This document shows positions 38,295-39,292 of a stretch of DNA of 64,000 bases, in pieces. How positions within the stretch are numbered: the stretch's first letter is position 1; each line of letters opens with the position of its first letter. Under the pieces are notes generated by a model. The model saw only the letters and a list, made by a program, of their open reading frames with translations, did no database searches and was not told where the DNA came from. The translations under genes and the position numbers were made by a program. Origin of the DNA: Halobellus salinus (GTDB lineage: Archaea > Halobacteriota > Halobacteria > Halobacteriales > Haloferacaceae); assembly GCF_014646875.1 (NCBI RefSeq), contig NZ_BMOC01000014.1:1-64000 (forward strand), given 5' to 3'.

Positions 38295-38340
38295 CGGTCG
38301 CCCGACGGTTCGGCAGCGACCGATCGGCGACGAGGATGGT

Positions 38341-38366
38341 GAAAGAAAGGGGTCCGCGAGGACCCC
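38341..38366 (-). terminator. Hairpin plus T-rich tail ending the candidate ncRNA
   Basis: On the minus strand ggggtcc (38355-38349 after complementing 38360-38366) pairs with ggacccc around a tcgc loop and is followed by tttctttc. Archaeal terminators are mainly T-runs, so both parts fit. In the opposite direction no T-run follows the stem. Confidence 0.5.
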
Positions 38367-38465
38367 TGACTGACCAAGCCACTGCGGAGAGCACCAGTCT
38401 CGCAGGCTTTTGCCTGACGCGCCCGGCGTTTCCGGGCCGGACGCGCCGTATTATTGTCCAACGTT
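38341..38465 (-). ncRNA. Candidate structured non-coding RNA
   Basis: Read on the minus strand. An AT-rich block with several TATA-like motifs (38486-38520) precedes about 110 nt of GC-rich sequence with successive hairpins: a GC-rich stem in 38416-38447, aggc-aaaa-gcct with a four-base loop (38404-38415), and a gactg/cagtc stem (38368-38399). It ends in a 7-bp stem with a 4-base loop and the T-rich tail tttctttc. There is no credible protein frame. It does not look like tRNA, SRP RNA or RNase P RNA. The 5' end is a guess from the promoter position. Confidence 0.5.
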
Positions 38466-38653
38466 TGTGAGTAAAAATGCTATGATAGGGCCAAGATATA
38501 CAATATATATTCTTATTATACCCCACTCGTCTTCTCGCTGTGTCTAATACTGCGCGATAGGTCGTTTCGGCTTCCGAAAGCGCAACTGTGTCCGGTCATT
38601 CCCGAAGACACCGACGCCACAACGGAGGTGGCAACCAGCCGGGACGGCAGGGA

Positions 38654-39292
38654 TCACCGAACGAGATACGACTCATCACCCGGGAGGAACCGACCGAGGT
38701 CCGCCTCGCGGCGGAAGTCCGTCGACTGGAGCTGTCCGAGTCCGTCGACCAGCCGGTCGTGGTGGGTTCCGTTCCACGCCGCCGGGTCCACGATGGGGAT
38801 GACAAGAAAGCCGCGACCGACTCGTTCGGCGGCGTGTAGCGACTCCATATCCGGCTCGCCGTCCGCAGGGTGAGCGGTGTAGGTCTCCAGCACGTGCGCC
38901 GTCGCCCGTGCGCCGACCGGCAGGAGGACGTGGGCCGCGATCGCGCGGAGTTCGGCGTCGAAAACGGGTTCGAGTTCGTCGTACGACGACCGCGACGGCG
39001 GAGTCTCCGCGAGCGCGCACGGGTGAAGATATGAGAGGAACGTCTCCGCGACAACCGGAGCGTCCCCCGTCGCGGCCAAAAGCCCGGCGTCGGCCAGTGC
39101 AGCCTGGAGCCGGCGCCCGGCCGCGTTGGTGAACGGCACCCCGGTGTCGAGGCCGCCGTGGACACCAGGGTGGTCGCCGATAACGTGGAACGCGGCGTTG
39201 GCGTCGCCGTACCCTGCCACGAAGCGCTTACACGGCGCGCACATCCCGAAGGGGTTGCTGATCCGGTCGGTGACGTTCTCCACGGCGACCAC
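38654..39292 (-). CDS. Uracil-DNA glycosylase family protein, Fe-S type
   Basis: 212 residues. Haloarchaeal member of the uracil-DNA glycosylase superfamily with Cys pairs for a cluster (MCAPCKRF near residue 18 and SYLHPCAL near 90), the motif HVIGDHPGVHGGLDTGVPF and the substrate-recognition VLLPVGARATAHVL. It should excise uracil or a related base. GTG 39292 follows a TATA-like ttttaat (39306-39312). The exact UDG family (4 or 5) is not certain. Confidence 0.8.
   Translation of the reverse strand: MVAVENVTDRISNPFGMCAPCKRFVAGYGDANAAFHVIGDHPGVHGGLDTGVPFTNAAGRRLQAALADAGLLAATGDAPVVAETFLSYLHPCALAETPPSRSSYDELEPVFDAELRAIAAHVLLPVGARATAHVLETYTAHPADGEPDMESLHAAERVGRGFLVIPIVDPAAWNGTHHDRLVDGLGQLQSTDFRREADLGRFLPGDESYLVR

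Follow-up and report, generated by a model that had tools for sequence, protein, structure and literature searches.

A conserved noncoding RNA gene of Haloferacaceae with predicted pairing sites in mRNA 3'UTRs

The DNA examined in this study (the window) is a 64,000-nt stretch of contig NZ_BMOC01000014.1 from Halobellus salinus. The original prediction, made from the letters of this stretch, had pointed to a gap of roughly 900 nt without an intact gene and had placed an independent structured RNA gene on its minus strand. We confirmed the gap, which is bounded by two minus-strand genes, one coding for a uracil-DNA-glycosylase-superfamily (UDG-like) protein and the other for an MBL-fold hydrolase. 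The features of this locus are, in the direction of transcription of the minus strand:

38654 to 39292, minus strand: upstream neighbour, UDG-like gene (PF03167, E 1.7e-10)
38491 to 38494, minus strand: TTGG core of the upstream promoter element (A/T)AT-TTGG, a possible activator site, kept in most of 46 distinct homologues
38472 to 38477, minus strand: TATA-like box TTTTTA, 25-30 nt before the RNA start
38341 to 38447, minus strand: predicted sRNA of about 107 nt, with the 5' end near 38447 and the 3' end near 38341, placed by a 40-homologue alignment, the covariance model hit and the TATA-like box
38416 to 38447, minus strand: helix P1, the 5' hairpin GGCGCGUCCGGC...GCCGGGCGCGUC
38382 to 38405, minus strand: helix P2, the central hairpin CUGCG[AGACUGGUGCUCUC]CGCAG with a nearly invariant loop
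38368 to 38381, minus strand: linker UGGCUUGGUCAGUC, the proposed target-pairing seed
38341 to 38367, minus strand: helix P3, the terminator hairpin AGGGGUCC[UCGC]GGACCCCU followed by a UUCUUUC tail
36753 to about 37755, minus strand: MBL-fold hydrolase gene, the other flank of the gap

To begin with, a 200-bp region of this locus was compared by blastn with 171 Haloferacaceae genomes, the same GTDB family, and gave strong matches in many genera, centred on CTGCGAGACTGGTGCTCTTCGCAGTGGCTTGGTCAGTC. A covariance model (R1), which matches the window at 38329-38447 with 104 bits and E 4.8e-23, detected a single strong copy in each of 138 among the 171 family genomes, representing 22 of 28 genera. 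The match in g23 was then excluded because it looks like coding sequence, leaving about 137 genomes and about 21 genera. Among the genera compared within the family are Halobellus, Haloferax, Halogeometricum, Haloplanus, Halonotius, Halohasta, Salinigranum, Halegenticoccus, Haloparvum, Halopenitus and Halobium. The Haloferax homologue, recognisable by GACGCGCGTGGTTCGATTC...GTGGCTTGGTCAGTC, has its predicted start at GACGCG. A class-wide draw of 392 genomes produced just six marginal matches outside the family (E 1e-4 to 1e-2). We inspected these singly and took them as chance, since most fall within coding-like sequence and the layout of promoter, hairpins and linker is seen in none. Hence, by this search the sRNA is not convincingly present outside Haloferacaceae. 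Viral contigs, searched for the exact pattern, and plasmids contained no copies.

The order of elements on the RNA strand is (A/T)AT-TTGG, the TTTTTA box, about 24 nt, P1, a variable spacer, P2, the linker, P3 and the T-rich tail. In 46 distinct homologues the four T's of the TTTTTA box are nearly invariant and the spacing matches; one homologue has TATT. This box agrees with the haloarchaeal TATA consensus TTWT (PMC4983044). The (A/T)AT-TTGG element lies about 17-20 nt further upstream than the T-run and is likely the site of an activator of the sRNA gene. The original prediction had taken a very AT-rich (TATATA) block as the promoter. This block is not kept in relatives, where the conserved core consists of the TTTTTA box and the TTGG element. 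The position of the promoter also bears on the idea that the RNA is a cis-acting 3' element or a read-through product of the UDG-like gene, which indeed lies upstream of it on the same strand in Halobellus, Halogeometricum, Halegenticoccus, Halonotius and Haloparvum. We regard this idea as very improbable, because a conserved TATA box and upstream element of its own separate the sRNA from the UDG-like gene, the two are 207 nt apart, and the neighbours are different in Haloplanus, Halopenitus and Halalkalirubrum.

The minus strand at 38341-38458 folds with -59 kcal/mol, compared with -43.5 +/- 3.8 kcal/mol for dinucleotide shuffles (z -4.1; 0 of 200 shuffles reached this value), and the plus strand folds more weakly (z -2.7). 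A lack of stem conservation in relatives had been named as one refutation of the predicted gene. We aligned 40 diverse homologues and counted 23 pairs in three helices. Both sides have changed in 14 of these pairs. The number of double-change cells is 60, as opposed to 29 +/- 4 after column shuffling and 14-24 in slid controls. P1 diverges fast in sequence and preserves its pairing (84.6% of cells paired, with double-sided changes in five of 11 pairs). P2 is paired in 98% of cells, and nine sequences carry a compensatory change from CG to UA. The columns of its loop, GACUGGUGCUC, are nearly invariant. All seven counted pairs of P3 have changed on both sides, and the T-rich tail after this hairpin also occurs in relatives.

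These data refine the predicted architecture. Stable hairpins on the minus strand had been proposed, and three helices (5' hairpin, central hairpin and terminator) do covary. The proposed hairpin with an aaaa loop, CAGGC-AAAA-GCCTG, is not kept in relatives, where this region instead supplies the 5' strand of the covarying CUGCG...CGCAG hairpin. A hairpin at the RNA end also withstood comparison; it was described as a 7-bp stem with tttctttc and measures 8 bp, followed by TTCTTTC. The predicted length of about 107 nt, from 38447 to about 38341, is slightly shorter than the 110-130 nt first suggested for the transcript.

Searches of the window locus with Rfam and ARAGORN returned no Rfam family, tRNA or tmRNA, in line with the earlier remark that the RNA matches neither SRP RNA, RNase P RNA nor tRNA. 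Likewise, none of three divergent homologues reaches the gathering cut-off of any Rfam family, including those of SRP RNA, RNase P RNA and tRNA. Two classes of guide RNA, C/D box and H/ACA, were rejected by eye for the window copy: its RNA strand contains neither a C box (RUGAUGA) nor a D box (CUGA), and an ACA box is lacking 3' of both P1 and P2. A conserved reading frame is absent, as the homologues differ by indels of any length and by changes that preserve stems. This pattern leaves hardly any room for the notion that the locus codes for a tiny protein. In favour of one, the Haloferax copy has frame 1 open; the window copy lacks an ATG, and tagged sRNA_61, the probable counterpart in H. 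volcanii, gave no protein signal (PMC12482152). The independent structured noncoding RNA gene of the original prediction is thus supported by stem conservation with compensatory changes and by the lack of a match to known RNA families. The conserved TATA box, the upstream element and the covarying terminator hairpin with its T-rich tail mark it as an independent transcription unit. On this comparative evidence, the minus strand at 38341-38447 is a genuine stand-alone noncoding RNA gene that is presumably expressed.

We then turned to the question as to how this RNA may act. The linker UGGCUUGGUCAGUC, which joins P2 to P3, is near-invariant in 40 sequences from about 20 genera. Its mean unpaired probability in single-sequence folds is 0.39, which means that it is free only in part. 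A pseudoknot between loop and linker (GACUG:CAGUC) could form in 87.5% of cells; its positions show zero covariation and pair no better than shuffles. In three AT-richer genomes of one genus (G098, G099 and G100), P1, P2 and the loop are kept and the linker is altered, in G098 from UGGCUUGGUCAGUC to UCAAUUGAUCAUGA. The altered linkers suggest a retargeted or relaxed seed.

Complements of the linker were found at conserved places in mRNA 3'UTRs. Searching 17 Halobellus genomes for the 15-nt linker complement with at most one mismatch gave eight matches besides the sRNA itself, five of which fall at one place, 10 nt past the stop codon of a single gene. This gene codes for a syringate/vanillate-O-demethylase-like (desA/ligM-like) protein of the GcvT family. 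In all eight of the closest Halobellus orthologues of this desA-like gene (L156-L163), GACTGACCA occurs about 10 nt beyond the stop codon in otherwise diverged flanks. No longer word is shared by all eight 3'UTRs; the shuffled null gave words of at most 4 nt.

A second target class emerged from four Halogeometricum species, in which a 13-nt complement is located 34-43 nt downstream of the stop codon of a gene for a winged-helix (wHTH) protein of about 90 aa. In three of the four species with the site, the match extends to a perfect 17-nt complement, CGGACTGACCAAGCCAC. The gene (HTH_24) is present in 161 of the 171 genomes. Its 3'UTRs in Haloferax, Halogeometricum, g11, g16 and g28 have a single long word in common, GACCAAGCC, which is complementary to the linker; across 17 wHTH 3'UTRs from these five genera, no longer word is shared. 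With shuffled sequences, the longest shared word never exceeded 7 nt in 2000 trials with five UTRs, or 4 nt in 500 trials with 17 UTRs. The Haloferax wHTH 3'UTR carries GCAGACCAAGCCACC. In g10, g11 and g16, the site falls largely inside the loop of a 3'UTR hairpin, the stem of which differs among species.

The third class comes from two Haloferax species. In H. elongans and H. larsenii (L219 and L220), a 17-nt complement, CCGGACTGACCAAGCCA, follows the stop codon of a gene for an HVO_0416-family zinc-finger protein (mu-protein) and continues directly into GAGCACC, which complements GGUGCUC in the sRNA loop. The stretch right after this stop codon, CCGGACTGACCAAGCCAGAGCACC, therefore complements both linker and loop. 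Two observations from Haloplanus may be added here. In one genome (L214), a 13-nt complement overlaps a start codon (ATGACTGACCAAGCC), possibly by chance. In two others (L216 and L218), GACTGACCAAGCC is kept at matching intergenic places with partly similar upstream sequence.

In all three classes, the site lies on the sense strand of the mRNA. Duplexes predicted with the sRNA of the respective genus range from -23.5 to -42.2 kcal/mol, 9-23 kcal/mol better than shuffled sequences (about -14 to -20 kcal/mol). Conserved mRNA sites complementary to the seed are hence found in the wHTH 3'UTRs of five genera and in the desA-like 3'UTRs of eight Halobellus genomes. Genome-wide, 13-nt complements are not enriched across the family (21 matches outside the sRNA, against 16 for the reversed word), and the case for these targets consequently rests on orthologous position. 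The 13-nt matches cluster by genus. When 17 genomes were sampled from five genera that lack the sRNA, none contained the wHTH 3'UTR site. The site is also absent in many genera that do contain the sRNA, including Halobellus, so that the targets appear partly lineage-specific and the comparison of presence and absence is weak on its own. Nine-base matches in the window's own genome included no convincing target (GACTGACCA: 17, versus 22 for the control).

The words GACCAAGCC and GACTGACCA near stop codons might instead be DNA sites at which a transcription factor controls the downstream gene, in which case they would have nothing to do with the sRNA, and the sRNA would act otherwise. At the wHTH locus the site is indeed about 50-70 nt upstream of the start of the next gene, near the position of an upstream activator. 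This explanation is difficult to reconcile with matches of up to 17 nt that include a base at which the sRNA differs between genera, with the frequent location of the site in an RNA hairpin loop with a changing stem, and with its occurrence at three unrelated genes in one orientation relative to the upstream gene. We consider it improbable.

The main rival is that the RNA has a structural role or associates with the ribosome or a protein, with the invariant loop and linker as the binding surface and the 3'UTR complements as a secondary or lineage-specific feature. Both loop and linker are near-invariant, more so than a seed with changing targets would need, and the lack of genome-wide enrichment points in the same direction. 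Moreover, the probable counterpart sRNA_61 is highly abundant and ribosome-occupied and yields no detectable protein (PMC12482152). We examined complementarity to rRNA in the 16S and 23S loci of two other Halobellus, because the window's own assembly yielded no rRNA genes, and detected nothing beyond chance. Association with a ribosome or protein would also leave the conserved words in antisense register in orthologous 3'UTRs unexplained, and in G098-G100 the linker changed while the hairpins stayed. We judge this alternative to be rather unlikely, if clearly the one to be taken most seriously.

We therefore favour, as the probable reading, a trans-acting small regulatory RNA that pairs with sites in mRNA 3'UTRs. 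The linker UGGCUUGGUCAGUC, perhaps together with the central loop GACUGGUGCUC, would serve as the pairing seed and hybridise to complementary sites of 9-17 nt downstream of the stop codon, which in several genera sit within a 3'UTR hairpin loop. Pairing would alter, in either direction, the stability or the translation of the target mRNA. The clearest candidate target, in five genera including Haloferax and Halogeometricum, is the mRNA of the small conserved winged-helix regulator, and lineage-specific targets would be the syringate/vanillate-O-demethylase-like gene in Halobellus and the HVO_0416-type zinc-finger gene in two Haloferax. Expression, pairing in vivo and the regulatory effect are what we infer from sequence comparison. 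Two reports on haloarchaeal 3'UTRs are relevant here: they set the direction of translational control (PMC2636863), and the transcribed 3'UTR of HVO_0416 is unusually long, exceeding 100 nt (PMC6490895). A link of the RNA to CsmR was considered and discarded, as the CsmR paper deals with an Lrp/AsnC-like protein and offers nothing toward the wHTH target.

A more elaborate version of the trans-acting model is conceivable, and we propose it tentatively. Loop and linker of a family-wide sRNA with a frozen seed might kiss 3'UTR hairpins; the winged-helix regulator could be the ancestral target, and other genes could have been recruited by gain of a site after the stop codon, resulting in a microRNA-like 3'UTR regulon. 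Such a regulon would be more novel than a trans-acting sRNA. If the favoured reading of a trans-acting, 3'UTR-pairing sRNA is right, it would provide a conserved model sRNA and a mechanism of 3'UTR-based control in archaea. Targets of archaeal sRNAs are rarely known, and this RNA offers specific, testable ones in 3'UTRs, within a covariation-supported family that spans about 21 genera and includes the genetically tractable Haloferax.

Trans-acting sRNAs as a kind of system are already known. The present RNA is new as a conserved family, in that it is absent from Rfam and we found no paper describing it as such; its Haloferax copy has probably been seen already in RNA-seq lists. Most haloarchaeal sRNAs studied are not conserved (22 of 27 are confined to H. 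volcanii), and a few from H. volcanii, namely H225.2R, hts10, htsf_359 and htsf_242, were found in 7-19 other haloarchaeal genomes (PMC3956466). Any of these four could be the present RNA, judged by description, as the text of that report gives no sequences. In Methanosarcina mazei, an unrelated lineage, sRNA162 is reported to act in trans through two pairing domains and to have a transcription-factor mRNA among its targets (PMC3510493). The likeness to the present RNA is that of a trans-acting archaeal sRNA with a transcription-factor target.

The sRNA132 of H. volcanii is a stand-alone intergenic RNA of 138 nt with its own promoter and predicted 3'UTR pairing that lowers HVO_0416 mRNA (PMC6560208). 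The present RNA resembles it by its own promoter and its link to 3'UTRs, and in two Haloferax the 17-nt complement lies in the 3'UTR of just such an HVO_0416-type gene. We rejected identity of the two by description: sRNA132 is reported only in Haloferax and is flanked by two hypothetical genes at 101 and 107 nt (PMC6560208), whereas the present RNA has about 107-115 nt, about 21 genera, and other neighbours and spacing.

The probable counterpart in H. volcanii is sRNA_61, described as an abundant, ribosome-occupied intergenic RNA of 111 nt with a 32-codon stop-less frame, found to be noncoding by Western blot (PMC12482152). The parts consulted of this report and of a second one (PMC5892119) mention neither a family nor targets for it. 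From its length, we infer that sRNA_61 corresponds to STRG.2577.4 in the latter report. Among the Haloferax copies of the present RNA, seven that are H. volcanii-like are likewise 111 nt long with a 32-codon stop-less ORF as the longest frame, which is expected in 5.8% of random 111-mers. The Haloferax copy is therefore probably sRNA_61, an identity drawn from length and frame, as the main texts give neither sequence nor coordinates. This fit suggests that the Haloferax homologue is expressed and, if true, would probably put a name to an RNA that ranks among the most abundant in H. volcanii.
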